Origin: Apostichopus japonicus
Taxonomy: Eukaryota; Echinodermata; Holothuroidea; Aspidochirotida; Stichopodidae
Reading direction: 5' to 3'
Assembly: GCF_037975245.1 (NCBI RefSeq)
Contig: NC_092576.1
Span: 4,982,501-5,046,500 of the forward strand
DNA length: 64,000 nucleotides
Under the pieces are notes generated by a model. It was given only the letters and a program-made list of their open reading frames with translations, was not told the origin of the DNA and did no database searches. The position numbers and the translations under genes were made by a program. The first letter of the stretch is position 1; the number at the start of each line of letters is the position of its first letter. Shown here in pieces: positions 359 to 63,337 of the stretch.

Positions 359-393
<35 letters not shown>
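359..393. repeat. (TA)n, left side of the insertion site
   Basis: This is a simple TA dinucleotide run between host sequence on the left and the inserted 17.3 kb element on the right. The matching tract continues at 17703-17756 after the element. It is uninterrupted at 40362-40433 and 62856-62897 in the other cassette units. Confidence 0.9.
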
Positions 394-395
<2 letters not shown>

Positions 396-396
<1 letters not shown>

Positions 397-675
397 ACTA
401 AATTATGTCATTAGGGGACAAACACTCGGAAAAAAATGTAATTTAGGAGACAATTTTCATTTCAGGAGACATTGTTTTGTCTCCGAAGTTCTTTCAGATG
501 ATATCTCGGCGTTACCGCTGAAATCAAACCTCCCGCCAATACCAGAAGTGGCTATTGCAGCCCGCCAGAGTGTGGAATACTCCATTTAGTAATAGGAGCG
601 TCCAGTCTTCATTACAAGGCAATTTAAAATTGCAAGAAATATACTGAGTTGTTTTCACATTCCACTTTGGAGACA
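396..675. promoter_or_regulatory. Left-end terminal inverted repeat and GGAGACA motif cluster
   Basis: The motif GGAGACA or its complement TGTCTCC occurs at 446-452, 465-471, 478-484 (inverted) and 669-675, with a variant GGGGACA at 414-420 inside the TIR. The pair at 465-484 forms two perfect inverted 7 bp arms around a 6 bp spacer. That geometry matches the inverted arms and 6-8 bp spacer of known tyrosine recombinase crossover sites. Binding by the encoded recombinase is inference. Confidence 0.6.
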
Positions 676-849
676 ATCATTTTTTTGTGAACTACGGGCA
701 TATCCTGCTGTATATCTCTTCTAGATTTCTACAGAATATGTTTTTATTACTTCTATACCGGTCCATAGTCGCAACGTTATGAATATAACAAAATCGTGAG
801 ATATATAGACGATTTTCCGAAAATCGTTCCTATTTTCGTTATGGTAAGT

Positions 850-963
850 TCTGATGACGTAATTCATCCGTTCAATTCACTAACCGCACTCGTACGTGTA
901 CTAGCTTACAACTTACAAGTGCAAGCCAGGGACATCGGATCAAGTTATTGTGTTTGACCAATG
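850..963 (+). other. Candidate first (mostly untranslated) exon of the recombinase gene
   Basis: A strong donor (ATG followed by GTAAGTTAAT) ends a candidate exon at 963, and another donor-like GTAAGTT lies at 844. If the ATG at 961-963 is used, it joins in frame to the exon starting at 4581 (phase 0) or to the one starting at 3048. The left boundary is unknown and no TATA box stands out, so the promoter cannot be placed more exactly than upstream of this donor. Confidence 0.3.
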
Positions 964-3047
964 GTAAGTTAATCGAGAAAGAGTTAGTTTAGCATGTCAT
1001 ATACGGAATAAACAGTGATTTTACTTTGACAGAGTAAATTTAGGAGGCAAGCCCAGTGATTGCATCCACCGAACAATGTTCCCAAGCTGATGGCGTAGGC
1101 CGAAGTTATCCTTGACTAACGTTATGCTACAGTTACAATAGGCATATCTACCCTACACTACAGTAGGCCTACATACGGAACTGAAGTGCAGACTAAATGT
1201 TTTATTTCTAAATCTAATTATTTATGATTATGATCATTTTTTATTATTTTTAGTCTAATTCTTTAAGTATATTCATATTTTATTTTTTCGTTATTTTCTG
1301 TTGTGTTTTTTTATAATGCCTTATCTTAATAAATCAATCATATAAACTAAGACAGGGTTCATTGGCATGCATGGATGATGGAGATAGAGCGAATAATTGG
1401 TCACATTTTGGTTCCATGCAGCGAAATGCTTGAAACAATTTTGAATCTTTTTCATACTTGTGAAATTAATTACATCTACTTCGATTACTGTTTTTTCCTT
1501 GAACGGTGGTGCATATTTTTTGACAGTGAAGTTGACTTTGATTTTGCTAGACATTTTGTGTCCTATTGGAATTACCCATGTGAAATAGCTCACATTTGAT
1601 GCTGGCTAAAGAAATTAGGTAGGCTATTGCCTAGTCAATTAGTAGTACTAAGGCCTAGGCCTGTATAGTAACTACATAAGTAATGACTGGTGTTAAGGCC
1701 TACTGTAAGCCTATATAGCGAAATGTTAGGCCTAGGCAGGCCTAAGCAAAGGCATGTAGCACATATACACATAAGTAAGTCTACGTTAGGCCCTAGACTA
1801 AGTTCTAAGTTTATGTGTTTGGCTATTTGCACTTCTACTTCCCTTGTACTCTAACTTCAAAGTTAATTTCAGGGACCAAAGTTGTGAATAATAAGTGGGC
1901 TACCTCATACTCATACTCATGGTCTTACATTCAAAGCCTTGATTATTTCACATCTAGGGCTAATACTCCGAGTCCTACAAACTCCCTTTACCCTAAGTAA
2001 AGGGTTTCTTGTACCTGCATAATTGTTTAGGTCTAGGCTTAGGCTGTGGTGGCTGTAGGGAATCAGAATCTGATTTCAAGGGGAGGGGGACTTAAAAACT
2101 GCACTTTGCCTTGGCTAGAGAAGAAAAATGGAAACATCAAACATACAAAGCTTTGAATCCAGCACTTGAAGCAATATCTCCCCACTGCCCTTGTCCCCGG
2201 ATTAAGGATTTAAATAGGCATTGTGACTTCTACCTCCACTGTTCTTCACTCATGAGAATTAGTAAAAGGGTCAAATGCAGTCATCCCAATTTTTCCTGTA
2301 TTTCAAGCTTGTCTGGCTCTTTCCAACAAGACCATTCATTTGTTTCTGAATTGTTAAATTTATGGAAGATAAGTCCTTGGATCTATATGTCATTCATAAT
2401 TCTTTTATATCATTCTTGAAACATGAAAGTACTTTTGAGGGAGATGAGATTTGACAGGTACAATGTTCTGATGGTTTAAAAGTTAGGCTCAGGGGTCGAC
2501 TGATTATGCCCTTTAAATAAGGTTAGCAGTTATGGTAAGATAAAGCCACTTTCACTATGACTTTGGCTCTGCTCTAAGGGACTTGTATAGGAAGCACTTT
2601 GGAGATTGCCTGTTGTATCTACTTAGACCCTGTGTTGGATACCAAAGTAATAACAAACAAAATTGTTGTCACTTGTCAAAGTGTGTTGTGTACAGAAATG
2701 TCTTTTCATCCATTTTCAAGCAAGGTATCCCCCCCCCCCCCACCACCCGCTCCCTGAAGAAGTCTATGTAAGGCGAACTGCATCGTAGCATACCAATCAT
2801 GTGTGTTAATATGACACTGTTTTTCATATACTGAACCAATACTGTTATATACACATGCGTAGGCCTACTACTGTATATGTAGTGGCAAATACAAAACTGT
2901 TTATCCTCAATCTCAAAGAAGTGACAAATAAAGGAGCTTTGATGCTCATTATTATATATAAATAGAGGTTATGTAACAGTGAAACAGATTTAGGATAGGT
3001 ATATTTTCCTGCATTTATATAAGTGCTTTATCATTTTTATACTACAG

Positions 3048-3163
3048 CCCATAATGACTTGTGAATGTGATGTGGACTGGACAGTCGTTTCAATTATATT
3101 AGCACTAACTGGCATCGCAGCTGTACTGATTTACATATCATTTATACTACTTATGCATCCATG
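3048..3163 (+). CDS. Candidate exon or 37-aa single-span membrane microprotein
   Basis: A good acceptor (…TATACTACAG) precedes 3048 and a donor GTAAGG follows 3163. From ATG 3054 the frame gives a short Cys-containing N terminus (MTCECDVDWTVV) and then an uninterrupted hydrophobic stretch long enough to span a membrane. Read without splicing, it ends TGG-TAA at the donor, making 37 residues. As an exon it ends in phase 2, which does not join in frame to the next clear exon at 4581: TG plus A makes a stop. It may be an upstream ORF, an alternative first exon, or an independent small gene. A donor after the ATG at 961-963 could join to it in frame. No family was recognised. Confidence 0.35.
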
Positions 3164-4592
3164 GTAAGGAACTTTCAGAATTATTCTTTGTTTTTTACCA
3201 TACAAATTATGCATATTTGTTCAACCTATATCTACTATAAGAAAACAGTTTTCAATTGAAAGGGTTGTGTCATACTGTACACAGTATTGTAATGTATTGT
3301 AATGTGAAATTTGTACAGTTATGTGATATCCTACTTCAGAGTGCCGCTGTGACAGCACTAAAGAACATATAGGCCGACTCAAAATGTGTAACACCTACCT
3401 TACTGCCCAGTCCCTAATTTTGAAGATTATTATTGAGATTTAACTGCATTTAGATTTTACAACAAGTATATATGTAAAACAGCAAATAGCACAATCACTT
3501 TAGGAATAATTTATATTTTCTCAAATTAATGGCCTTATGTAGAATCATCTCTATACATAAAAACAAAGGACTACAGTTGTTAGTTTTAAATGTATATATA
3601 AATTAATCCTTACATTGCTCCAGATGAATAAATCAACCAAATGAGATTGTGCACTCAGTGTTCCAGGTGGATATATCCGCCTTAGAGGAATGGTGTGTTC
3701 AATGTATTAGTTTGTAACACCCCGTCCCATGCTGTTTTCATTTCTGAAATGTTTATATTAGAGTAAAGGATGCAATTCCGCAGAAATCTATGCTATACAT
3801 GCATTTGCACTGATACTTTTGGAGAATTTTACAATTGGACATGGCTTGTTGCTGCAAGTAGTGTATAGAGGAGGCACTTGCTGAAATAATAGCTGATCTC
3901 AGCAGTGATGATGAGGGTTTTGCTACTTGAATTCAGCATTACAGTGATAATAGTTCACATTATAAGTTAAATTTATCAAACTAAACACTTTCAAAGTTTT
4001 TCAAAGTATATACCATAAGAATGTAAATTTAGTTTCCAACAATATTTATGTATGTGTTATGTTAGGCCTTGGCAAATGATTAATTCAACTAAAGTAGTCT
4101 ACAAAGTGCAATATTATGCCTGGCCTGGTCCAGTTACATGTGTAAGCTTTGCTGATGTGACAGGCTTTTAAATATGCAAAAATGACTACGTGCCACACGG
4201 TCAGAGCAGGGGTAACTTGTGATGCAATAATAGCGCGTTCAAAATGAGAATGTGAAAGAGACAGTTCAATTTCTCTTCTGTTTCTATGCTATAACCTGTA
4301 AATGTGTGTGTGAGTACTCACAAGAGGACAAAGTCTGTCTAGTCTATGTATAATAACCTTCACCTGACAAGAAAATTTCACTGATTGACAATGACAGGGT
4401 AATCTTTCTATTGTTAGGAGTTAGTATAAAAAGGACAAAAACAAAGAGGAAAATATCACAAGAATTTACAGTTAAAAAGCATGTTTCTGGAGACAGGCCT
4501 CTCCGCCTAGTTTTGTTCAGTACAGGGTTAGGGTTAGGGTTTGATTTAGTTCCAATTCTGATGATTTTTCTTTACTTCAGAAAATTGCAAAC

Positions 4593-7500
4593 ATGGGTGC
4601 TCCAACAGATGCTCCTCCACCATATCCCGATGGCGAAAAAGCAGGTATTACATAAAGCTACCACTCATTCATTTAACAGTAACCTATGGAATCATTTCTG
4701 TTGCTCAGAGGTGCCAGTTGGAATGCAGAATCATATATAATTTTTGCCAGTTTTTTCTTTGTTACTGATTTATTACGTTCAGTGATATGCTCACGCCAGG
4801 CTGCGGCGGGAAGGCATGTGTTGGCCGTGCACGGCAGTTCTAAATCCCTCCAAGTACAAAGAGAATTGTAAACATTTCTGCCTATTCTTGATGATTAATA
4901 TCACAGCTTTTACCAAATTTACCAACAAATGGGAGAACAGTTGGGACAGAAGTTAGCTCCAGAATCGGAAAAAGATAGCACCATTTGCCATCTGAGTATA
5001 CTTGCAAAGATTTTCCAAATGGGAGGGGGACACCCCACCACTTAGACCCTTCCTCCAGGACGTGGATCACACAACCTTGCAAACCCGTCCGGCACTCAAA
5101 TATTCCTGAGCACATCCCTGTACATATACACAGGTAGTCAAGGCGTTCTGTGAAAATTCCTAACATGGCTTTGTGATTAAAGTTTTAAATGAAATTGAGG
5201 TGTCATCCATGGTTACACGGTAGTGTTGCTTCTGACTGGCCCCCCCCTCACCCCACAACCTCATCCCTAGCCTAGCAGGTAAATGGATCACCACCAACTA
5301 TGGTCTGGATAGTACAGTTGGTAGAGCATATGACTCGTTATCATGAGGTCACTCTGGTTCGGAAACGTGTTTTCGCTCAACTCTTTCTCCATGGTGTGTA
5401 TAAATTTTATCAAGTCAGATTTTCTGTTAGAATCTGTAGGTGGTCAATTTTGGTATCGTTTCTTCGTCGTCGATATTTGTGGTGTTTTGATTTTTGATAC
5501 AGATATCGTTTGATAGTTTGGTCATAGTTGGTCTTACTGCGATCGAGCTTTCCGACTTAGACAGGAGTTCTAACCAAGTAAATTCAACTCAACGATGTCT
5601 ACATTGCATTGTCATCGTCAACATTGTCCGCATAATTTCTACCCAGCAACATGTTTTTTTTCTGCATTCATTTTTTACACCCGTTACAACCCTTTTCTCC
5701 TCTTGTGATTACAGATTCACCTTCTTATACCGAGGGCACGGCTTACCCTCCTCTCTTGCAACAGGGATATCCACAAATGGGGCAATTACCTCAAGCACAA
5801 CAGCCAGCCCCAGGGTATTCGGCACAACAACCAGCCCCAGGGCATCAGGTAAGCATATGTCCACATCCCCGCCTCTCCCCCTCTCCCCACTCCCATCTAG
5901 TTTTTTGGTTGCTGTTTGGTGATATTCCTTTGCACGATATTGATATATTACATCATATACAACCTACGTGGGTTATGATTTTTCATCATACTACTTTCTT
6001 TATCAGTTTTTGCACTGTTGCACACAGGATACTGCACCGCACTGCACGTATATTGCAGTGTATTTCTTGTATTGCAGTATGAAAGTCGATTGAAACCTTT
6101 AATATTAAAAAATGTCGAAACTAGCCAGAGTTTTCTTTTGGTCTTTCTCTTGTTTGTGAATTTGAAAAATGATAAATTTGGGAGACAGTGAATACATACT
6201 GCAGTAAAAAAATTCAGAAAGTCTGTACCAGTGGCGTTTCCTCTAATAAATTAAATGTTACAGCCAAAATATCTTTGACAAAAGTATACATAGTGTCATA
6301 GGACATGGGTGTAGAGTCTAAACGTGCATATATATATGTGACCACCCAGACCATACAGAACTAAAACAGGTACTCACGATTTCAGTTTTTCCCATCCACT
6401 ACATAATAATGCTATAGTAACAGGCTATTGTATATTAAATCAGGCTTTGTAATTATTGCAAAGTTTGTTTACAGGCCTGTGCAATTGCATAGACAGTAAA
6501 TGATCCAAAGCTGCAATCCTCAATTGAATATGACATTCATATACATGCTTTCTTTTGCTTTATGCTAAGGATTCTGATGAAAGCGATGATGATGATGATG
6601 ATGATGATGATGTAAATGATCCACCGTATTGCCTAGATGATGATCAGCCTGTAAGTTTGTGAGGTCGACTATATCATTAGCAAAGCAATAGTTACCAAAA
6701 CACTTCCTAACATTTTCACTTGAACATTTCATTGGTAAATTTTGCCACTTCCTTGTAGACACCACCCTTCTCTAATTATCTAAATTGGTAGGTAGGGTCC
6801 CTTTGAGGCTTTCAGTTTATTTCAAAGTGAGTGTATCGGAAACATGCAGAATCTTTGTATATGAAGATATGTTTGAAGTTTAACAAACTTTGGTTGTGTA
6901 AAACATTTGGTTTGTCTGAAAATGAAGAGCTGGCATGAGCCGAATGGCACGATGTGATATCAGATTACTACGAAGGTAGTCACTTTGATGACTATTTAGT
7001 TGGTATTCAATCTGGAATGCTTATTGTCAAATTGGTCCATGATTTTTGGAAGCTTCAAGTTTGTATAAACATAGATAAATTTGAACCTTGTGTCAATAAA
7101 TTTGTCTACATTTGTAATATTTTTAATAGTATAATGCCCTGTTATAGATTTTATCTATCTACACTTTGAAGTATCCTGTATTCTATTTTATACAGCCACA
7201 ACAGAATATGCGATGCGGTAGACGAAAATTGCGTGACTATGTTTCAGATAGTGAGGACTCTGATGAGGATTGTTCTGATAGCAATGGGGTGTTGCAACGA
7301 CTTGCAAATCTACGTTGCCTAAGAGAAGGAAACTACAAAAAACCAAGAAGAACATGCCCATTTTGCTCTAAATCCTACAGTGAGAAACTGGCAAGACACA
7401 TTGGAACTATCCATAGACACATTCCACAAGTTGCTGCAGCATTGAAGCTTCCAAAGAAGGAAATGGATGAAGCCTTTTCAAAGATGAGGAAGGAGGGGAT

Positions 7501-10500
7501 CCTGATGGTGAACAAAGAAAAGATGAAAAGCAGAACACCAGTGTTTGAGAGAGAGAGAAACACTGCATCCAATCAACCCCTTGTCATGTGTGGACTATGC
7601 AAAGGTTTCTATGTCAAAAAGTGTTTCTCCAGACATAAGATAAAGTGTCAAGGTGATAGCTGTGAAGAAGCATGTACAATACCTGTGTCATTACTAATGT
7701 CTGAAACAACAAACCAAAACAAACTTTTGTCCGAGTTTAGTGTAAACATTTTATACAAATTCCGAGGTGATGAAGTTGGTTCTATTTGCAGAGAGGACCC
7801 TGTGATCCTGAATGTTGGCAAAAGACTATGGGATAAGGGACGAGCCAAGGAAAACAAGAAAACGGAGGTTCGTAAGTCTGTAATGAGTGACATGAGGAGA
7901 CTTGCCTCACTTTATCTGCACTTCAAGGAGCAAAAGACTATCCATGCTTCACATTTTACTCTGGAAACTGGTACATCAAGGGATATGTTTGATCGAAAGA
8001 ACTTCAGCATCCTGAGTGAAGCAATTAATGCTTACACACTAAACAAAGAGAAAGCCAGTATCAAGTCAGGATTAAAACTTGGTATCTATTATCTTCTAAA
8101 GAAGGCCTCAAAGGTGATCAAAGCAACACATCTTGTAGAAGAGAATGACATTGCAGCAGCTGACATAGACAGGTTTGTCTCTGTTCTAGAGCTGAATCAG
8201 AACTTTCTGTTTGGAGATGCTTCATATCAAATAAATATGAACCGCCAAAAGAACTTGAGAAAACCTGCGGCACTTCCATTGGAAGAAGACATCAACAAAC
8301 TTCGAAGTTATACTGTGGCAACATTGAACTCAATGATGAATGATGACTTTATCATCTGGGATTCACACAACTTCAAGAAATTACGGGATCTAACTGTCAC
8401 AAGATTAACACTCTTCAATGCTAGAAGAGGTGGTGAGCCCAGTCGTTTGTCATTGGATGAGTGGAGACAGGCCAGTTGTAATGCTTGGATTGATAAGCAA
8501 AAGGCAGAGGCTATTCAGGATCCTGTAGCGAAACATCTCCTTAATGAGCTCAAAGTCACATACCAATCTGGCAAAGGTAACAACCACTTGGTTCCAGTAT
8601 TGTTCCCTGATGATTGTATTAAGCCCATGGAAACACTCACTAGCAAGGAAACCAGAAGCACAGCATGCATACGACAATGCAACCCATACGTCTTTGCATG
8701 CACACAAGGATCCAACAATCATGTTAGTGGATGGCACGCCCTTAATGGTGTTTGTGATGACGCAGGCATTGACAGCACATCAAATCTTACAGCCACCAAA
8801 AATAGGCACAGAATTAGCACCATCTATGCATCACTTGAAATTCCTGAAAAGGAGAGAGCACTCTTTTTTAAGCATATGGGACACAGTGCAGACATAAATG
8901 AAAACATTTATCAAGCACCTGCTGCAATAATGGAGGTTGTGAGAGTAGGGAAGCAACTGCAACAAATTGATAAAGGTGAGAAAACTGGGCACCATGCATA
9001 TACCTTGGGCAGACAGCTCTGGGTAAAACTCATCAACATGACCATTCCTTGACAAATTAGAACTAGGCATCAGGGATGGCTGTAAAACCTGTGAGGGCAC
9101 TTAAGCTATTAGATACAACCCACCAGTAATTTGAGCATACTGGTCCAGTCATCACTGGATTGTAAGTGATGTACCTCACTCATCATTTTGGTATGCTTGG
9201 GTGTGGAAATATGAAATTTTAGCAGGAGTGTCACAGCACATAGATATGAACTTATTTTCCTACTAGGGTATTAATTGAGTTTTTAGAAAAATATCTAACT
9301 TACTTGTTTTAGTACTTTTACAATGTATTTTTCTTATTTACACAGCAAATCCATCCACGCAAAATGATGAGTACTCTTCCGATGGTGCAGAGAACAGCTC
9401 AGGTATTTTCCAACTAGGGTATTTAATTGAGTCTTTAGAAAAATATCTAACTTGCTTTTTTAGTAGTTTTACAATGTATTTTTCTTATCTACACAGCAAA
9501 TCCATCCACTCAAAATGATGAGTACTCTTCCGATGGTGCAGAGAGCAGCAGTTCAGGTATTGTACAAAATCATGTTGAATCTTTTTTGTAATGAATATTT
9601 TTTAAATTGATAGCACTTTTTTATTGCAATTTATTTATTAGTTTAAGCCTATATGTGTGTGGTTTGGATTTGTTATCAGATTTCAAGAATGCCTTGCAGC
9701 ATTTTATTGTAGAAAAATAAACAGTTTTGTTATAAGTTACATGAGGTAAGGTTAAGGTTAAGGTGGTAACACTTGGTAAAGCGCACATTACTGTAAAACA
9801 CTCAATAGCGCTCAATGGTAGAGTGTCCATTTAAGTCATGTCTACTTCAGTTGAGACTCATGTCAAGTAAATTAAACTTAGTCCAGAAATTCAAACTTTT
9901 AGTCTGAGTCACGGGCATGTTGTTGTTGTTACAACACAAGAATAAATTTTGTTCTAATGATTTAATGTTGATATGTTTGTAATATTCTTGCACTACAGAC
10001 AGTCAGGCAGGCACCATTTTAAGCTCTGAAGCAGAGTACCACGTTCAACGAGGTAATCAAATTTTCTTTAACCTAAAGTGTCCGTGCATTAAAACCAGAG
10101 CATTTTTCAAATTTGTAATGTTACTCCATGAAGAAAAATATACTTTCAACGTGCATTTACTGTGTAGATTATGTACTGAATAGAAATTTAATTTTATTAT
10201 CTAATTGAAATCAGTGCGAGATAAAAAACTTTACATATTGCTGTTCATTTAATTGTAACTTTTAATATGAATTATGTTAACAAAGGTGTTGGTGAGAGTT
10301 GCCTGACAAAAGTGTGAATTATATGAACAGAAACGTGCCTTCTGATATGGTGATTAGCATGTTTCTAAAATAATTTGAAAATGAGACAGTTCTCTAATCG
10401 GTGAATCAACTGATGGAAATGAAACATAGGATTCTAGTAAAAAGGATACTCAAAAATTGAATATATTGAGCATAGATAATGTTTTTTTCAATGTTATTGT

Positions 10501-13500
10501 GGACCATGCTTCACATTACATCTCTATATCATGTAAAACACACAAACATGCATACACAAAGGCAGTATCTATTGGTCTGTTTTGAATATGGTATGTTATT
10601 TAGTGGAGGATACTTAATCACAGTGTGTTTTCATTAGATGTTCCACATTATTTTGTTTGCTTGATGTAATCGATTCATTCAACAATGCTATCAATGTCAT
10701 TTCTTTTATGCAGGATGCAAACGAAAGCATGATGATGCTGGTAAAGTAAAATCAGGTTGGTCATTGATGATATCACTTGTCTATGATAACACAGCTAGCT
10801 GTAGTTTAGTCATGTATATAAGTTAGTATGGCAGCTACATAGTCCTGTTTCCCTCATATAGCTGGTGTGTGCAGTCAAGTTTCAGAAAAAGAACAAGCAT
10901 TGAGGATAGCTTTCTTACCCCTGTCATGGCCAATAACAATGTACCTATGTGGGATAGATGATAGAAACAGTTTATGAGGCAGTTACACCTAAGCAGTCTG
11001 CCTAGGCACCATCTTCCAGTGTTAAATTTTTGTCTCAGATTTGTCAAATTTACGCTCCATTCGACAGGACGAAAATATACAAGATGGAATCAAAAGGATA
11101 CTGCGCAGGTGCTTAAATACTTCAAAGGAATGATTACTGGCACCCAAGAGAAAACCATACCAGGTATGTATTTGTGCTGTCATTTGTAATTCAAAGTTTA
11201 TATAATGGATATGATCATGAAGGTGTATCCAAGCACCCATATTGATAAAAACATACTTGTAAATCAATGATATTTGCAGCCTGATTCTGTGAAAGTTTGT
11301 TAACTGAACACAGTTGACTTTTGGTGTGTATCGGTTACATAGGATGTCATTGTTGTAAGAATATAATTTTTCTCTAAGCAATTGATATGATCTACCAGTA
11401 CCAAGCAAATGACAACTGCAGATTAATGTAACACACTGCACTGCTTGCTATGCTGAAGATAAAGGTGTATATTTCAACTTCTTAGCAATTGCTCTTCTTT
11501 TTGGCTTGCAGGTTGCTTTGCACTTTTTTAGGTTTCTGGAGTCAAAGCAAACTGAAAATTATGGAATTTCAAAATAAAAATAAAACGAAAAATGAGAAAA
11601 TGTAAAACATTAGAAAGTTATCATGAAATAGGTCTCTCTCGCTGAAACTAGTTGTTCCTTTGTAACATTAGAGGCTCATTCGCTCATAATTAACATAATA
11701 TTCATACATAATTGTGCCATGCCAAATCCACGAAGTCTTGTATACTTAATATTGTCATAGAAAAGTCGAAGAATTTACTTTTCAAGATCGTGCCAGACTT
11801 TCTCATCAGTCATTTAGTAGTAAACCTCTAGTTCTATATCAAATATAGTTTTAGAAATGTAGTTGGGATTTTTTCTGCTTGTTTGGTTCCTTGCTAAAAG
11901 CAAATGACCTATGTTTTCAGGGTGGCGTGTATGCGTGACATGTGTTTGTGTGACGCTTTGCTTGTATGCACGATAACTCAACAAGGGCATGACAAATCAT
12001 TACCATATTTGGTGAGTAGATGAACCCTATAGATTTTGGCGCTCATATCATGTATATTAATGAGGTCCAAGGTCAAACGTGAAAAACTCCAAATTGCAAT
12101 AACTTGGCTACTATTAGTTGGAATTTCGTCAAACTTGGTATGATGATATTGGTAGACAGTCTTCACACACTGATATGTGTTGTAATAATTATCATGCATA
12201 TTAATGAGGGGGCGGGCTTAGCAATATTTCGGTATGAACAGTTTGTATGCACAATAACCTAAGGAATTGACCCATGATTACCATACTTGGTGGGTAGGTG
12301 GCCCATTGTGAGTAGATGAACCCTATAGATTTTGGCGCTCATATCATGTATATTAATGAGGTCCAAGGTCAAACGTGAAAAACTCCAAATTGCAATAACT
12401 TGGCTACTATTAGTTGGAATTTCGTCAAACTTGGTATGATGATATTGGTAGACAGTCTTCACACACTGATATGTGTTGTAATAATTATCATGCATATTAA
12501 TGAGGGGGCGGGCTTAGCAATATTTCGGTATGAACAGTTTGTATGCACAATAACCTAAGGAATTGACCCATGATTACCATACTTGGTGGGTAGGTGGCCC
12601 ATTGTGAGTAGATGAACCCTTTTGATTTTGGTGCTCATGTCATGAATATTAATGAGGTCACAGGGTCAAACGTGGAAAACTCTAAATTGCAAAAACTTGG
12701 CTACTATTAGTTGGAATTTCGTCAAACTTGGTATGATGATATTGGTAGACAGTCTTCACACACTGATATGTGTTGTAATAATTATCATGCATATTAATGA
12801 GGGGGCGGGCTTAGCAATATTTCGGTATGAACAGTTTGTATGCACAATAACCTAAGGAATTGACCCATGATTACCATACTTGGTGGGTAGGTGGCCCATT
12901 GTGAGTAGATGAACCCTTTTGATTTTGGTGCTCATGTCATGAATATTAATGAGGTCACAGGGTCAAACGTGGAAAACTCTAAATTGCAAAAACTTGGCTA
13001 CTATTAGTTGGAATTTCGTCAAACTTGGTATGATGATATTGGTAGATAGTCTTCACACACTGATGTGTTTTGCAATTATTATCATGCATATTAATGAGGG
13101 GGCGGGCTTAGCAATATTTCGGTATGAACAGTTTGTATGCACAATAACCTAAGGAATTGACCCATGATTACCATACTTGGTGGGTAGGTGGCCCATTGTG
13201 AGTAGATGAACCCTTTTGATTTTGGTGCTCATATCATGAATATTAATGAGGTCACGGGGTCAAACGTGGAAAACTCTAAATTGCAAAAACTTGGCTACTA
13301 TTAGTTGGAATTTCGTCAAACTTGGTATGATGATATTGGTAGATAGTCTTCACACACTGATGTGTTTTGCAATTATTATCATGCATATTAATGAGGGGGC
13401 GGGCTTAGCAATATTTCGGTATGAACAGTTTGTATGCACAATAACCTAAGGAATTGACCCATGATTACCATACTTGGTGGGTAGGTGGCCCATTGTGAGT

Positions 13501-13966
13501 AGATGAACCCTTTTGATTTTGGTGCTCATATCATGAATATTAATGAGGTCACAGGGTCAAACGTGGAAAACTCCAAATTGCAATAACTTGGCTACCATTA
13601 GTCGGAATTTTGTCAAACTTGGTATGATGATATTGGTAGATTGTCTTCACACACTGATGTGTGTTGCAATTGATATCAGGGCTTAGCATTACTTTGGCAA
13701 CAAAATTTTGTGTGCATGAATTGTTGTTATTTTAGTAGGGCTTTCTTAGAAATTTCCCTATGAATGGAACTAATGAACAGCAGCAAGAAACCATGAAACC
13801 ATGAAATGTTTTTATTCTGGATTTTCTTTGATTTGTAGGTAGACATGACGTGGAAGTATTTCTCAAGAAATGCAGACTATCAACATCTTATGACTGCTTG
13901 ACCATAAGAAGTAAGGTCATGAATGAAAGAAACAAGTGGCATCGGTTAAATGGCCTACAAGAATAA
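4593..13966 (+). CDS. Tyrosine recombinase gene of the element, about ten coding exons
   Basis: Coding exons, all with GT/AG ends and compatible phases, are 4593-4644 (exon from 4581), 5715-5848, 6570-6650, 7196-8975, 9346-9402, 9497-9556, 9999-10052, 10714-10755, 11068-11163 and 13839-13966. They sum to 2484 nt, or 827 residues plus TAA. In order they encode a Pro/Gln-rich N terminus with one PPPY motif, an Asp run (GAT repeat), a second acidic Ser/Asp stretch, two zinc-finger-like motifs, a tyrosine recombinase domain, short acidic Ser-rich exons, and a C-terminal Myb/SANT-like segment. That segment has RKYTRWNQKD and KYFKGM in exon 11068-11163 and FLKKCRL and IRSKVMNERNK in exon 13839-13966. 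The whole resembles a zinc finger/integrase-like protein family common in fish, cnidarian and other invertebrate genomes, known here from memory only. Its expected role is cutting and rejoining DNA at the element ends. The start (4593, or 961 through an upstream exon) is the least certain part. Confidence 0.72.
4965..5115. repeat. Diverged relative of the hAT-type MITE
   Basis: The stretch with a GGGAGGGGGACACC core followed by CTTAGACCC and CCTCCAGG resembles the internal part of the MITE found at 38174-38537, but is far more diverged. No terminal repeats were found. It lies in an intron of the recombinase gene. Confidence 0.4.
5297..5366 (+). repeat. tRNA-like sequence, probably a SINE head or tRNA fossil
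   Basis: A box A-like segment (AGTTGGTAGAGC) and a box B-like segment (GGTTCGGAAAC) occur at tRNA spacing, with a possible anticodon arm between them. The acceptor stem does not pair well and box B deviates from GGTTCGANTCC, so a working tRNA is unlikely. A tRNA-derived SINE is the better guess. Confidence 0.35.
7196..8975 (+). CDS. Main recombinase exon: zinc-finger-like motifs plus tyrosine recombinase catalytic domain
   Basis: Residue numbers count from the ATG at 7166 of the enclosing 628-codon frame, although splicing at 7195/7196 puts that ATG in the intron. Zinc-ligand patterns are C64-x2-C67...H78-x4-H83 and C142-x2-C145...H157-x3-C161. Tyrosine recombinase landmarks are R420/R421 in NARRGGE, R547 in NRHRIST (where the classic family has LRH), H570 and H573 in HMGH, and nucleophile Y582 in ENIYQ. 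Their order and spacing fit an intact phage-integrase fold C-terminal domain, so the enzyme may be active. A donor (GTGAGA) follows 8975 in phase 1, which is exactly what the exon at 9346 needs. If that donor is not used, translation runs on to a stop at 9050-9052, giving an alternative shorter C terminus that lacks the SANT-like part. Confidence 0.85.
9259..9556 (+). repeat. Tandem duplication of a small exon and its 5' intron
   Basis: A block of about 150 bp is repeated. Each copy has intron sequence beginning around ACTAGGGTATT and ending in TTACACAG or CTACACAG, then a small exon (9346-9402 and 9497-9556) with near-identical coding sequence NPSTQNDEYSSDGAE. The second exon is one codon longer, through extra Ser codons. 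Both keep the phase (1 to 1), so either or both can be included without shifting the frame. Confidence 0.85.
12013..13690. repeat. Intronic minisatellite, ~297 bp period, six copies
   Basis: Units start near 12013, 12309, 12605, 12902, 13199 and 13496, each beginning GAGTAGATGAACCC. They are nearly identical inside, while the first and last are more diverged and partial. Each unit contains TTGGAATTTCGTCAAACTTGG. The array fills most of the intron between the last two coding exons (11163 and 13839). Short open frames inside repeat with the unit and are not genes. Confidence 0.92.
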
Positions 13967-15400
13967 TGTGTGACTGTGCCTTATAAGTATACACATGATG
14001 TGAAAGGTTTTTTTTTTAAAGAAATGCAGACTATCACCATGTTATGATTGTTTTGCTACCTGAAGTAATGTCACAATTGAAAGAAACAAGTGGCATCAGT
14101 TACATGGTCTATATTAATAATGTGTGACTGTGCCTTATAAGTATACACATGTGAAAGGTTTTTTTTTAAAGAAATGCAGACTATCACCATGTTATGATTG
14201 TTTTGCTACCTGAAGTAATGTCACAATTGAAAGAAACAAGTGGCATCAGTTACATGGTCTACATTAATAATGTGTGACTGTGCCTTATAAGTATACACAT
14301 GTGAAAGGTTTTTTTTTAAAGAAATGCAGACTATCACCATGTTATGATTGTTTTGCTACCTGTAGTAATGTCACAATTGAAAGAAACAAGTGGCATCAGT
14401 TACATGGTCTACAAGAATAATGTGTGACTGTGCCTTATAAGTATACACATGATGTGAAAGGTTTTTTATTAAAGAAATGCAGACTATCACCATGTTATGA
14501 TTGTTTTGCTACCTGAAGTAATGTCACAATTGAAAGAAACAAGTGGCATCAGTTACATGGTCTACAAGAATAATGTGTGACTGTGCCTTATAAGTATACA
14601 CATGATGTGAAAGGTTTTTTTTTTAAAGAAATGCAGACTATCACCATGTTATGATTGTTTTGCTACCTGAAGTAATGTCACAATTGAAAGAAACAAGTGG
14701 CATCAGTTACATGGTCTACAAGAATAATGTGTGACTGTGCCTTATAAGTATACACATGATGTGAAAGGTTTTTTATTAAAGAAATGCAGACTATCACCAT
14801 GTTATGATTGTTTTGCTACCTGAAGTAATGTCACAATTGAAAGAAACAAGTGGCATCAGTTACATGGTCTACAAGAATAATGTGTGACTGTGCCTTATAA
14901 GTATACACATGATGTGAAAGGTTTTTTTTTAAAAAGAAATGCAGACTATCACCATGTTATGATTGTTTTGCTACAAGAAGTAATGTCACAATTGAAAGAA
15001 ACAAGTGGCATCAGTTACATGGTCTACAAGAATAATGTGTGACTGCCTTATAAGTATACACATGATGTGAAAGGTTTTTTTTTTTAAAAGAAATGCAGAC
15101 TATCACCATGTTATGATTGTTTTGCTACAAGAAGTAATGTCACAATTGAAAGAAACAAGTGGCATCAGTTACATGGTCTACAAGAATAATGTGTGACTGT
15201 GCCTTATAAGTATACACATGATGTGAAAGGTTTTTTTTTAAAAGAAATGCAGACTATCACCATGTTATGAGTTTTGCTACAAGAAGTAATGTCACAATTG
15301 AAAGAAACAAGTGGCATCAGTTACATGATATGACTGTGCCTTATAAGTAGACACATTAAAGAAATGCAAACTATCAACATTTTATGATTGTTTTGCTACA
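13967..15400. repeat. ~153 bp tandem array derived from the terminal recombinase exon
   Basis: About ten copies follow the last coding exon. Each contains GAAATGCAGACTATCA, GAAAGAAACAAGTGGCATC and TGTGTGACTGTGCCTTATAA. These strings also occur in order in the last exon and the start of the 3' UTR (13864-13995), so the array grew from coding sequence. Copies carry T-run length variation and have lost the reading frame. The last copy, near 15355, is degenerate. Confidence 0.92.
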
Positions 15401-16140
15401 AGGCTTAATTAGTTTTGGTTATAGGAGATATTTTTTGATGGGTGTGCCTAACAAATGCTTTTTAATGAGATGGCAATTACCATATTTACATGCTCTTTAA
15501 TGTTGGCAGGTAAATAAATGTAAATTTCTTGATGGTGAGGTAACTCACAAAAGAGACATTTTAGCATCTTTTCTGGCAACAGTTTGCACTCTATTAAACC
15601 ATTTTGATTTATACCAGCTTGTTTCATCAGAATTGTTACTTTTTGTCAATTTCACCCATGCTTGTCTGAATTATTTTAACAAGTTCTTTTAAGAAGCTAA
15701 AACTTAGAACCAGTGGAGGTTAGGAAGCTGCATCAGCTGTCTGCTATGGGACATTTTACAAGACAAGACTTCAAGTTTATGTCTCAACTGTTTATTTGCC
15801 ATTGTAAGAAACTTTATAACAGTCCTAATTGTAGCTGTGTATGTTAACTATGCCTCAGTATTGTACTAACAAAACTTACGTAATAAAGTTAAAATATCTC
15901 ATTGGTGTTATTCAGTCCAGTCCAGGCTAAATATAAATACTAATTGATTGCCAGATAGAAATTTTGCTACAGAGTAATTGTTGTATGCCTATTCAATTGT
16001 CGTATATGCTAAATTCTAATTATTTCAAACTTAATTGGTAAATCGAAAAGTATTGTGTGCATTAACACAAGCTTCAACACTGATTCCATATGAACTTATA
16101 CAAAGGTTTCATCTGATAATATAATATTTCAGCACAGGCC
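15401..16140. other. Non-coding, nothing recognised apart from the possible poly(A) signal
   Basis: AT-rich sequence with stops in all frames, no repeats shared with the rest of the window and no domain-like frame. Confidence 0.6.
15882..15887 (+). terminator. Possible polyadenylation signal AATAAA
   Basis: An AATAAA hexamer lies 1.9 kb past the recombinase stop and beyond the exon-derived array. If it is used, the array would be part of a long 3' UTR. AATAAA is common in AT-rich DNA, so support is weak. Confidence 0.25.
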
Positions 16141-16156
16141 TCATTGGACACTATAT

Positions 16157-16740
16157 GCATAATGGTTCGTTTTGGCTGTTCTTTTTCTTGCCTAAAATGT
16201 TTGCAGAAATTTAGTTATTGACCATAGTAACATTCGGTTGTTGTTTTGAGTTAAGATTTAAACCCATTTTATATGTTTTGTTATATGGTATGTTAAATGC
16301 CTGTGTGTTATATGTTGAGCTGAAAAAAAAACTTAACCGTATTAGTGTCATCTAATTAGTACACTCAGTTTCCTTCTTGATTGATGTGTATTTTAAATTT
16401 GAACACTTTATGCATAATGGTTCGTTTTGGCTGTTCTTTTTCTTAGCTAAACTGTATGCAGAAATTTAGGTGTTGACCATAGTAACATTCGGTTGTTGTT
16501 TTGAGTTATTTAAACCCATTTTATATGGTTTGTTATATGGTATGTTAACCCATTATATTGAGTTATTTAAACCCATTATATTGAGTTATTTAAACCCATT
16601 TTATATGGTTTGTTATATGGTATGTTAAATGCCCGTGTGTTATATATTGAGCTGAAAATAAACGTTACTAAACTTTACCTTATTAGTGTCATCTATTTTG
16701 TACACTCAATTTCATTCTTGATTGATGTGTATTTTAATAT
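16157..16740. repeat. Direct tandem duplication, ~260-330 bp units
   Basis: TGCATAATGGTTCGTTTTGG begins both copies, near 16157 and 16410. Both continue through TTCGGTTGTTGTTTTGAGTTA, TTTAAACCCATT and TATTAGTGTCATCTA. The second copy has an internal triplication of a short GAGTTATTTAAACCCAT segment around 16540-16600. Confidence 0.85.
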
Positions 16741-17400
16741 TTAGCGACAATTAGTACCTCCCATATAGTGTTGCACGTCTTAGCAACCCTCCCCTTCATG
16801 TGCACTTTAACAGACAACTAACCTTATAGAAAAAAAAAACATTCCAAAATGGTACAGTGCATGCAATTCCAATATATTAAGAGCCTCTTTTTGTTGGTCG
16901 CTATTTCTTCACTTTTGTACAGATGTGTACCCACATACAAATATTCCTCTCCATTGAGGTACTCAGCTGTTGTCTGGTCATTTCATAAAATAATAAATCA
17001 CGCGACGAAAAATCTTTACTCTTAACAGTGTAACAAATTATGAATAAATGAAGGGACTTCAATCCCTAGTTGCGTATGTTGAGTTGGAACTCCGGAGTAT
17101 CGGTGAATTCGTATTTAGTGGTGAAGAGTATAAAAAGCATACCAGCTAAGTCCGAGGTAAAAGAAACGATCAATTCCGCGTACAAATAAACTGCTATTTA
17201 TAATGTTGGGTAGGCTTAATTTGTTACGTCTATTACGGTCCATTTAATCAAGGAGGGCGTGGGCCTTGCGGACACTCAAAATGAAAACAAATTCTTTGTA
17301 TTCGTTACGCTTCCATAACGATCGTTTACGTCTATTATAAAAACGTAATAGTGAACAGTTTGGAATAGATATACGGAAATCACAATATATATTTTAATAT
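16741..17400. other. Non-coding right arm of the element, nothing recognised
   Basis: No open frame with domain-like content and no repeat matching the left arm was seen here. It precedes the right-end motif cluster. Confidence 0.5.
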
Positions 17401-17414
17401 TAAGTTTGCTTCTT

Positions 17415-17700
17415 AGGAGACGTCTCCTTAATATGCCTTTCTTCATAAAATGTCTCCCAAAAGAAGGAATTGCAATAAAAAAAAAAAATTGGGAGACAAA
17501 ATAACACTACAGAGAGTTATATATTTGGTCCATTCCTTTATGATCGTATTTTTTTTGTAGCTATTGAGACATAACCTTGCAAGCTAAAATGCATAAAATT
17601 TTAACTCGCTGGGCATTTCGTTCAAGATTTATGCAACATATACAATATTGTCTCCCATATATCATATTATAATCATTGTCTCCTAATGGTACAATAAAGT

Positions 17701-17701
<1 letters not shown>
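17415..17701. promoter_or_regulatory. Right-end terminal inverted repeat and GGAGACA motif cluster
   Basis: A perfect 14 bp palindrome AGGAGACGTCTCCT lies at 17415-17428. Further copies are TGTCTCC at 17451-17457, GGAGACA at 17492-17498, TGTCTCC at 17649-17655, and TGTCTCC at 17677-17683 inside the terminal repeat (17676-17701). Together with the left cluster this gives about five motif copies within 300 bp of each end. Confidence 0.62.
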
Positions 17702-17702
<1 letters not shown>

Positions 17703-17746
<44 letters not shown>

Positions 17747-17756
17747 ATATATATAT
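17703..17756. repeat. (TA)n, right side of the insertion site
   Basis: This is the right half of the TA tract split by the element. It is followed by the ATATGATATATATAT and TTTTAGAAGTG context that also follows the uninterrupted tract near 40417-40440. Confidence 0.9.
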
Positions 17757-27816: not shown

Positions 27817-30800
27817 CTACTTAGAGTGATGAAGTATACGGTCATGGCTTACTGAGTGCATATTCTTCTCATATTTATTATCTGCACTTATCTCCTGGTA
27901 CTCATCCTCATCATTTGCTTCAAGAAAATAACTTTCGGAGATTTCTGTTTGTAGTTCATTTCCATCACTATCGAACATCTCATCTGGCCATTCTTGTTCG
28001 TCATTTGTCACACAACCGTCCATGTTGGAGGTTTGTGGATTTTTCTTTAGTTTCCTGTCAACCAAATAGAAATAGCATTTAGGAGAGGATAGGAGAGGAT
28101 AGGAGAGGAGAGGAGAGGAGAGGAGAGGAGAGGAGAGGAGAGGAGAGGAGAGGAGAGGAGAGGAGAGGAGAGGAGAGGAGAGGAGAGGAGAGGAGAGGAG
28201 AGGAGAGGAGAGGAGAGGAGAGGAGAGGAGAGGAGAGGAGAGGAGAGGAGAGGAGAGGAGAGGAGAGGAGAGGAGAGGAGAGGAGAGGAGAGGAGAGGAG
28301 AGGAGAGGAGAGGAGAGGAGAGGAGAGGAGAGGAGAGGAGAGGAGAGGATAGGAGAGGATAGGAGAGGAGAGGAGAGGAGAGGAGAGGAGAGGAGAGGAG
28401 AGGAGAGGAGAGGAGAGGAGAGGAGAGGAGAGGAGAGGAGAGGAGAGGAGAGGAGAGGAGAGGAGAGGAGAGGAGAGGAGAGGAGAGGAGAGGAGAGGAG
28501 AGGAGAGGAGAGGAGAGGAGAGGAGAGGAGAGGAGAGGAGAGGAGAGGAGAGGAGAGGAGAGGAGAGGAGAGGAGAGGAGAGGAGAGGAGAGGAGAGGAG
28601 AGGAGAGGAGAGGAGAGGAGAGGAGAGGAGAGGAGAGGAGAGGAGAGGAGAGGAGAGGAGAGGAGAGGAGAGGAGAGGAGAGGAGAGGAGAGGAGAGGAG
28701 AGGAGAGGAGAGGAGAGGAGAGGAGAGGAGAGGAGAGGAGAGGAGAGGAGAGGAGAGGAGAGGAGAGGAGAGGAGAGGAGAGGAGAGGAGAGGAGAGGAG
28801 AGGAGAGGAGAGGAGAGGAGAGGAGAGGAGAGGAGAGGAGAGGAGAGGAGAGGAGAGGAGAGGAGAGGAGAGGAGAGGAGAGGAGAGGAGAGGAGAGGAG
28901 AGGAGAGGAGAGGAGAGGAGAGGAGAGGAGAGGAGAGGAGAGGAGAGGAGAGGAGAGGAGAGGAGAGGAGAGGAGAGGAGAGGAGAGGAGAGGAGAGGAG
29001 AGGAGAGGAGAGGCTTGTAACCTGTTGATATTAGTATTTATTGGGAAACGAATGACCGACGAACGACGACAGATTCAAACCAGCACACGTTTTTTAAACT
29101 GTCGATATTGATTAATATCTACTAATAATTAAACTATGATTGCCTACCTCCCGCAAAATAATCCACATACAAAAGTGGCCATTAACACGAAGAAACAGAC
29201 GCTGGACGAAACCGATATCCACAACATCCACTCTTCTGTCGTGTTATTAAACCAGTTACCTTCGGAAAGAAGGACATCAGCTGCGAGTACAAAACATTAA
29301 ATGGAACGATCTGAAGTCAAATATTCTCAAGAGGACACAGTCACTTAATAATCACTGTTTATGTAGAAAATCCTCACCTCTAACATCCAATGCACAACAT
29401 TTAAGATAAATATTGTTAAAATCATAACATCATTGAGAAAGTCCAAATTGGGGAAAATTGCATAATAAAATAATAAAAGCAATGGGATTTTACTTGTTCT
29501 CGTATTTAAGCTGCTGTACTAAACTCCTCTGATGCAAGATGCATCTGAAGTTTATATCTGATATACCTTACCCCGTAGTTCAATGTCAAGGTTATCTACA
29601 GATATATAATATTTGGATTTTGGACTGGTTTGTGAGACACATCGTCAAAGACAGCATTTATAGTTCGAAGACAAACCTACATTCAATACTTATAAAATCA
29701 AAGTTTGAAAAGGAGATGGGGTCAAAACTTGAAAGCTCTACTTATTTAAAGTTTAAAGTTCTAACATGGCGTTTGAATATTTTCCGCATCAGGCTTTAAT
29801 AGTAAGGGCTTGGTAAATCTTACATAAGATGACAAGGAAATTGCATCAAAACTCTTCTACATTCTCCTCAGCCCAGCGGTAAAATTCAATAAAAAAAAAA
29901 GTCACATTGCAAATTTTCCGTCCTACCTCTAAAAAAAGGTCATGGGTATGGGATGAACGTGTCCACTTACCCACTTACTTAAATTCAATTTTTTGAGTCA
30001 GTTGATAAACAGTGCTTCCTTCCTTTCCAAAAGATAGAGATATAATATAGACAAATTAGAGACTGCAGTAGATAAATTATAAATTGATCGTTGGCTTACC
30101 TTGAAAATGTTGATCAAATATCCCACAAGGGACAAGGATGGCCACGTTGGAGCTGATAAACTCCATTCCTCTAAATTGACACGAAACATTGACCTCATCT
30201 CCAGAAGGAAGGAGATGTAATGTGGATGTTGAGTCGGTAATGTTTGGCCTCTCTTTGTTTGGTGTGTACATAACATCACGTACGTTGGGACTGTCTAGGC
30301 TTACATCTTCGTCATTAACGACCCACGTTAGGCTAGCCGGGGGTCTCGATCCAATCGCAAGACATGTTATCTCGATTGGCTCTCTCGGATCAATGACAAT
30401 GATTTCCGGTGAGTGTCTCATCATACGGATAAACGTGTCATTGTCGAATGACAATGTAACCTCTGGGATAACTGAATAGTGAGAGATATATGCTACAAAT
30501 TAAAATTGCACTGTAATGCTAATGTGCACAAAATTGATAAATAAACTGAAACTGACAATCAATCAATACATCGGAAGTTTTCACTACAGATGCTTTACAC
30601 ATGTTTCACTTGTTACTGAATATTCATGTAACCTCTTGCCGTTATTTTCTCGTCATGCCCATAAATGTATAATGATATATTAGAAATAGTAATCGTTTGA
30701 TAAATAAATTGAGACTGAAAATAAGAAATATTTTTAGAAGTTTAGAACTCTTTCATTTTCACAGCAGATATATCAAACATGGTTGACTATATAGAAACTG

Positions 30801-40361: not shown

Positions 40362-40419
<58 letters not shown>

Positions 40420-40433
40420 ATATATATATTTTA
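40362..40433. repeat. Uninterrupted (TA)n: empty site of the 17.3 kb element
   Basis: The same flanks as at 358 and 17743 are joined here by TA repeats only, so the element is absent from this copy. Confidence 0.92.
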
Positions 40434-50501: not shown

Positions 50502-50964
50502 AGGAGAGGAGAGGAGAGGAGAGGAGAGGAGAGGAGAGGAGAGGAGAGGAGAGGAGAGGAGAGGAGAGGAGAGGAGAGGAGAGGAGAGGAGAGGAGAGGA
50601 GAGGAGAGGAGAGGAGAGGAGAGGAGAGGAGAGGAGAGGAGAGGAGAGGAGAGGAGAGGAGAGGAGAGGAGAGGAGAGGAGAGGAGAGGAGAGGAGAGGA
50701 GAGGAGAGGAGAGGAGAGGAGAGGAGAGGAGAGGAGAGGAGAGGAGAGGAGAGGAGAGGAGAGGAGAGGAGAGGAGAGGAGAGGAGAGGAGAGGAGAGGA
50801 GAGGAGAGGAGAGGAGAGGAGAGGAGAGGAGAGGAGAGGAGAGGAGAGGAGAGGAGAGGAGAGGAGAGGAGAGGAGAGGAGAGGAGAGGAGAGGAGAGGA
50901 GAGGAGAGGAGAGGAGAGGAGAGGAGAGGAGAGGAGAGGAGAGGAGAGGAGAGGAGAGGAGAGG
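50502..50964. repeat. (AGGAG)n array, ~463 bp, type b tail intron, unit 2
   Basis: About 92 pure pentamers at the same site as 28081-29013, half the length and without its interruptions. Confidence 0.97.
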
Positions 50965-62855: not shown

Positions 62856-62886
<31 letters not shown>

Positions 62887-62897
62887 ATATATATATA
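62856..62897. repeat. (TA)n: second empty site of the 17.3 kb element
   Basis: Short uninterrupted TA tract between the same flanks as at 40362-40433. Confidence 0.9.
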
Positions 62898-63337
62898 TTT
62901 TAGAAGTGTTTAGTTAGTATGCATTGTCCCGTTAGTGAAATGCTCTTCTGTAATATATACAGTTCGGGGTTTTCTTTCTTTTCAACTGCCTCTTGTAGCT
63001 TTAGTTAGCTCTTTATCTCTTTGAGGGTCATCTCTCTGATTTTTTGTCATGTTCTATGGTTTCACTTTCTTTTCCTCAATGCAACAAAGCACGTTGTCAG
63101 CTAATTAGTATTCAAAGGTATTTGATATATATATATAGAAGAAATATATGTTTACACCCGTTATCCGTATGCTTGGCAGAAAATGGAAGTTTTTTTTCAT
63201 GTTTATCTTAATGCAAACTGTATCGTGTGAAGATAGTTTCAACGTTTTGTCTATAACATAACAAATGTGAAAAATAATCAAACAACTACAACAAAAGTTC
63301 CTATTCTTGACTTTACATATGTTTTTAATAGTCTTGG

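Follow-up and report, generated by a model that had tools for sequence, protein, structure and literature searches.

The described systems that bear on the element reported here are the Cryptons of animals, the Starships of Pezizomycotina and the recombinases of nimaviruses. Animal Cryptons (CryptonA and CryptonI) have a tyrosine recombinase as their sole recognisable enzyme and, in the part of PMC3212892 on which we draw, are reported to have neither terminal repeats nor a C-terminal domain; the same source gives Cryptons a proposed circle intermediate and a low copy number in most hosts. Starships are large recombinase-led DNA elements of up to about 700 kb (PMC12134995, in the part available to us), and the tyrosine recombinases of majaniviruses and pemoniviruses, in the sections of PMC10871703 that we used, typically carry a C2H2 domain and are linked to telomere-repeat insertion. 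Here we describe a stretch of 64,000 nucleotides of the Apostichopus japonicus genome (the window; C16:4982501-5046500 of an assembly of 671,581,487 bases in 35 contigs), in which positions 394-17702 are a mobile element, the type copy of what we call family A. Judged from its sequence, it is quite probably a large DNA transposon of an animal, mobilised by the tyrosine recombinase that it encodes. No comparable animal element was reported in the literature covered, that is, open-licence papers with Repbase excluded.

In the window a cassette of about 22.5 kb occurs three times in tandem, and copy 1 alone carries a 17.3 kb insert inside its AT tract. Because the flanks of the insert (1-393 and 17703 onward) are contiguous across the AT tract in copies 2 and 3, the interval is absent from both, and the left flank of copy 1 shares 99.7% and 97.2% identity with the other two. 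The original prediction had placed an insertion in a TA tract here, which was confirmed to the base, and it had proposed a search for the two ends as a pair. In the genome, the left end (394-700, 307 bp) was found at six places and the right end (17350-17702, 353 bp) at four, and they pair in the right order and orientation, with the same boundaries, at four sites on two chromosomes, three on C16 and one on C7. Identity is about 99% both between the ends of the paired copies and in the two fully read copies, which are colinear with the window element, and three pairwise comparisons of the first 11.5 kb showed 18 to 39 mismatches. Differences in length between copies include arrays of 297-bp and 154-bp units, and the third copy has about 2.9 kb of additional sequence, placed from its coordinates in the stretch from element position 1817 to 5296. 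Two further left ends, both on C17, are unpaired and more diverged (86-88%), one of them preceded by a TA-rich stretch and with its first base as in the paired copies, the other truncated at a TA tract, and a fifth recombinase copy with 99% identity lies on C12 with no ends detected. Segmental duplication or an artefact of assembly around the TA tracts might also be thought of, as such tracts are hard to assemble and the window itself contains a 22-kb tandem cassette. Against this, the copies share their ends and a colinear interior at 99% in flanks that differ (110 bp examined per side) on two chromosomes, and what is probably the host assembly was built from HiFi reads according to the part of PMC10344927 that we used. 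Artefact and plain segmental duplication were both rejected on the copy evidence, and we regard them as scarcely credible.

The junctions are identical in the four paired copies, reading ...TATAT/TTGACTAAATTATGTCATTAGGGGACAA on the left and ...TTGTCTCCTAATGGTACAATAAAGTGG/TATATA on the right (the slash marks the boundary); TATAT/TTGACTAAATT and AAAGTGG/TATATA are present in each, always within (TA)n. Runs of TA of at least 20 bp make up 0.8% of a non-random sample of 94,853 bases (the window from 17703 and 11 loci), and the chance of all four sites lying in such runs under random placement is about 4e-9. Since every paired copy sits in (TA)n, the TA tract looks like a target rule and not an accident. 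A target duplication is unreadable because TA repeats stand on both sides. The imperfect inverted ends that had been predicted were borne out, as the score of the 30-base ends was reached by 24 of 5000 shuffles, that of a cruder local test on 60 bases by 13 of 2000, and the inverted ends occur in all four paired copies. The left-end pattern of family A, composed with both ends in view, was searched through the whole assembly at up to three mismatches and gave 11 places against two for the reversed pattern as control, namely four left ends, one older left end, four right ends reversed (three mismatches each) and two others. From the ends we derived the motif TTAGGRGACAA, whose three exact copies in the window are all at the ends of the element (18 and 50 bases from the left, 17 from the right). 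With up to two mismatches, it recurs 69 and 273 bases from the left end and 45 and 243 from the right, and inverted at 84 from the left and about 204 and 279 from the right. At this threshold the 17.3-kb element contains 19 matches in all, some of them farther inside, against 34 in 46.3 kb outside it; among these 34 there is no exact copy and one with a single mismatch. We propose the terminal copies as candidate arm sites that the recombinase would bind.

A single large tyrosine recombinase gene had been foreseen, and an open reading frame (ORF) with the hallmarks of such an enzyme was found at 7148-9052 (634 codons, stop to stop), beginning about 6.8 kb inside the element and open in three of the four paired copies. 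In the protein, two finger-like motifs are followed by a tyrosine-recombinase-like domain in the C-terminal part. It carries RGGE, GKGNNHLVPVL, TKNRH and MGHSADINENIY, with R407, K456, R533, H559 and Y568 as catalytic-type residues, and the distance from GH to Y is the same as in XerD of E. coli K-12. Apart from the first H of HxxR, the tyrosine recombinase pattern R...K...HxxR...[H/W]...Y is present with normal spacing. In an alignment of ten sequences from the A. japonicus genome (the window protein and nine relatives), the finger ligands, the GE of box I and R533 of box II are invariant, and R407 is kept in six, GH in seven and Y568 in eight; box I varies in L021 and in L022, the latter of which is also without GH. 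PF00589 matched two of the ten (1.1e-4 and 0.0058), with values of 1.7e-5 for L040 and 1.7e-3 for L019 when the catalytic parts of five proteins were tested, all below the curated cut-off. The PHROGs gave an integrase match for one of the ten members (4.8e-4), the NCBIfam search chance-level matches only, and a search of PDB with the window protein no recombinase match. Relatives of the recombinase were not found in phage records, bacterial or archaeal contigs, or in viral contigs, which were scanned with two of its peptide patterns. Because the window protein has no direct model match, the recombinase assignment rests on motifs and relatives.

The recombinase gene probably has at least one further exon, because six of the 12 matches of a downstream exon found elsewhere in the genome outside family A (all weak, E 0.03 to 9.9) follow a recombinase relative on the same strand, 1.6-5.9 kb downstream (E 0.03 to 5.6). 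The exon follows the main one in each of the four paired copies of family A and in the copy on C12, and the matches outside family A would support the intron that the original prediction had assumed. By eye it looks SANT/Myb-like; it had no Pfam match, and the second half of a SANT-like domain was looked for in family A and not found. A possible acidic exon lies within a 151-bp duplication (9253-9549). The rest of the element was scanned for domains in 125 ORFs with a length of 42 codons or more, excluding those that start in tandem arrays or lie inside the main ORF. As predicted, these contained neither a reverse transcriptase (RT) domain nor a DDE or rve domain (small or split exons could escape). 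Other recognisable genes were not found among them either, the Pfam matches being at chance level (best E 0.0017), and three viral-named matches with E 0.02 to 0.084 were taken as chance.

The recombinase similarity search of the genome gave at least 77 matches, with 72 of 163 candidates scored, and many of those listed are long open frames (e.g. 745-830 codons) of 24-27% identity. A second family, family B, was described from one copy read end to end and most of another. Its right ends occur at nine places and its left ends at nine (up to three mismatches), pairing at eight sites to units of about 10.3-21.0 kb and leaving one left and one right end unpaired, both on C17. The recombinases of the two families share 25.9% identity over 563 positions (E 1.5e-35), which is the sole long protein match between the elements, the others covering 24-30 residues at E 2e-4 or weaker. 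The left ends of families A and B both begin TTGACT, and GRGGACA-like motifs occur in the ends of family B at nearly the same distance; when the ends of the two families were aligned, the score of the left ends was reached by five and that of the right ends by none of 5000 shuffles. The target is different, as all nine left flanks of family B have TG tracts, some short or interrupted, and the right flanks (read for eight of the nine right ends) begin GGTATGTGTG or GGTATGCGTG, all in TG tracts. A second family with related ends and a different dinucleotide target thus refines the original prediction. The best argument for the recombinase as mover of these elements is that enzyme, ends and microsatellite target co-vary in two diverged families. 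A second pattern, made from the left ends of both families, hit 15 places, including 13 ends of family A or B, against eight for the reversed control; it shows no third family and, being built from families A and B, is no independent proof.

Table 1. Coordinates of the features discussed; positions are those of the window unless an assembly location (C number) is given
Feature	Position	Strand	Size or basis
Mobile element (family A)	394..17702	+	17,309 bp; paired ends at 4 sites, colinear copies 99%, empty in two cassettes
Left terminal inverted repeat TTGACTAAATTATGTCATTAGGGGACAA	394..421	+	Junctions, shuffle test, genome pattern search
Right terminal inverted repeat, reverse complement CCACTTTATTGTACCATTAGGAGACAA	17676..17702	-	Junctions, shuffle test, genome pattern search
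Left half of (TA)n target tract, outside element	360..393	.	Flank comparison, junction reading
Right half of (TA)n target tract	17703..17756	.	Flank comparison, junction reading
Empty target tract, cassette copy 2	40363..40429	.	Cassette comparison
Empty target tract, cassette copy 3	62856..62898	.	Cassette comparison
Left TTAGGRGACAA-like cluster	411..676	+	411, 443, 462, 666; inverted 477-487 (up to 2 mismatches)
Right TTAGGRGACAA-like cluster	17413..17686	-	17676-17686, 17648-17658, 17450-17460; inverted 17489-17499, 17413-17423
Main exon of recombinase gene	7195..8975	+	ATG 7208; splice sites proposed from sequence
Possible small acidic exon	9346..9402	+	19 codons; proposed from splice-like borders
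Downstream exon RKYTRWNQKDTAQVLKYFKGMITGTQEKTIP, probable	11068..11163 (about)	+	33 residues; matches behind relatives
Exon matches behind relatives	C17:21943329, C1:6147985, C12:33240191, C2:11522649, C17:25155258, C1:5523503		
297-bp tandem array	12012..13670	.	5.6 copies; length varies between element copies
154-bp tandem array	13865..15327	.	9.6 copies; length varies between element copies
Paired family A copy (window)	C16:4982894-5000202		17,309 bp
Paired family A copy	C16:31954707-31971114		16,408 bp
Paired family A copy	C16:44731439-44751606		20,168 bp
Paired family A copy	C7:17226879-17243630		16,752 bp

Some further observations concern the copies and their surroundings. Seven of the 12 paired copies (three of four in family A, four of eight in family B) are on C16, which with 46.04 Mb is 6.9% of the assembly (binomial 4e-6, the chromosome being picked post hoc), and C17 has 23 of the 77 listed recombinase matches, mostly decayed fragments; these may possibly be low-recombination or sex-linked regions. 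Large tandem arrays occur in both families, that of family B (L065-L069) having a unit of 1.06 kb with 3.3 copies in one element and 5.6 in another. Some insertions of family B have similar surroundings, as ATGCAGGCGGA precedes the TG tract in two of eight left flanks (L074, L077) and TGACGC follows it in three of six right flanks (L080, L083, L084); a host repeat that contains TG may be a preferred target of this family. Four end-pattern matches (C8:26250170, C19:6688418, C8:4435868 and C19:28822770) are unassigned, being either chance or solitary ends. Among the relatives of the recombinase, L016 (C1:6142157) and L017 (C1:5525175) have open frames of 55-58% identity without R407, GH and Y, and the finger region is present three times in L016; both are candidates for domesticated, non-catalytic proteins. 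Two of the cassette copies contain AGGAG pentanucleotide arrays (28081-29013, 187 copies; 50502-50964, 93 copies) beside an acidic open frame.

The observed core of the proposed transposon is a discrete 16-20 kb unit at four (TA)n sites, which has fixed ends in inverted orientation and a single gene of recombinase type, and the original prediction of a mobile element led by a tyrosine recombinase finds support in the copies, the empty sites, the ends and the hallmarks of the gene. A site of such an enzyme typically consists of a core of 6-8 bp flanked by two binding arms, each of 11-13 bp and inverted relative to the other, as described in the part of PMC3212892 that we used. In the element, the recombinase would bind the terminal TTAGGRGACAA sites, perhaps by way of its two fingers and the downstream domain, and recombine the flanking dinucleotide tracts, releasing a circle with the junction GTGG-(TA)n-TTGAC. 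In this junction the right arm, (TA)n and the left arm would follow each other, with the inverted arms flanking the core as in a normal recombinase site. The TA core of the circle could then recombine with a TA tract elsewhere, giving an insertion with TA left on both sides, which is what is observed at the insertions. Family B would follow the same route with TG tracts.

Several results weigh against a transposon driven by its own recombinase. The first H of HxxR is T in the window protein (TKNRH), and this protein, L018 and L020 match no integrase model at E up to 10. When the genome was searched with PF00589, 20 places were hit, and the recombinase places of families A and B are not among them; the profile of the ten sequences found no recombinase match in PDB. 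Profile comparisons with the Crypton-like and DIRS-like sets of the same genome, all on shallow alignments, failed as well (E 0.26 and 0.74). Family B has a weaker inverted repeat than family A, with a score that 63 of 5000 shuffles reached, and the crossed ends are weak (2162 of 5000 for A left with B right, 234 for A right with B left). Moreover, DDE transposons, too, typically have inverted ends and subterminal motifs. Insertion in (AT/TA)n has a DDE precedent in Ginger2-type enzymes, reported for sesarmid nimaviruses with 46-bp inverted repeats in the portion of PMC10871703 available to us.

The inverted ends together with the TA target could therefore be those of a non-autonomous or composite transposon that is moved in trans by a TA-tract DDE transposase (Ginger2, mariner or similar) and in which the recombinase is a passenger, as in the mariner-Crypton composite MarCry-1_FO (PMC3212892, in part). 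We consider this unlikely. The domain scan of the 125 ORFs gave no DDE integrase, in which the element differs from Ginger2, and its ends differ from the 46-bp repeat as printed in the part of PMC10871703 that we used. With a recombinase only a quarter identical, family B keeps related ends at a different dinucleotide, which ties ends and target to the recombinase. Further, both end patterns return family A or B ends and two other places each, so there is no sign of a separate large family that has such ends. In family B the domain scan covered two other ORF peptides, and DDE families were not searched for genome-wide.

A transposon led by its own recombinase could still be a known Crypton (CryptonA) enlarged by tandem arrays and nested insertions. 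This would be a recombinase-only DNA element in an animal, and the same genome has recombinases which we take to be Crypton-like, e.g. L045, L053-L056, L058 and L059. The sole recognisable enzyme, the proposed circle and the low copy number are common to both. Unlike animal Cryptons as described above, families A and B have inverted ends with repeated motifs, finger motifs and a probable multi-exon gene (in family A with the probable downstream exon), and target a dinucleotide tract. In addition, no profile similarity to the Crypton-like group of the same genome was found (on shallow alignments), and the 12 paired copies of the two families span 10-21 kb. An enlarged Crypton thus seems improbable.

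The comparison with Starships made in the original prediction held only for the layout, since both are large recombinase-led DNA elements in a eukaryote. Cargo genes were not recognised in the element, whose recombinase sits well inside it. We take DUF3435 to be the captain domain of Starships and a captain at one edge with cargo to be their definition; no captain-type Pfam match was found among the ten aligned recombinase sequences. The size of 10-21 kb also differs from that of the largest Starships. Unlike DIRS and Ngaro retrotransposons, the element has no RT match. By description, the recombinases of nimaviruses come conceptually closest, while in contrast to endogenous nimaviruses the element has no recognised viral gene and targets dinucleotides.

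Taken further, the transposons of families A and B may represent a separate superfamily of 10-21 kb animal tyrosine-recombinase transposons with inverted multi-site ends, each family adapted to a different dinucleotide microsatellite, either (TA)n or (TG)n, and a possible source of the simple-repeat integrases of crustacean nimaviruses, an extension which we favour only slightly. A class of this size with defined inverted ends and a dinucleotide target would offer a testable reaction, with the questions of which dinucleotide core, TA or TG, is cleaved and how that core is selected. Such a class would provide natural recombinases that may insert into simple repeats, and may explain how such recombinases were recruited by giant endogenous viruses. 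The findings suggest that large recombinase-led elements extend beyond fungi.

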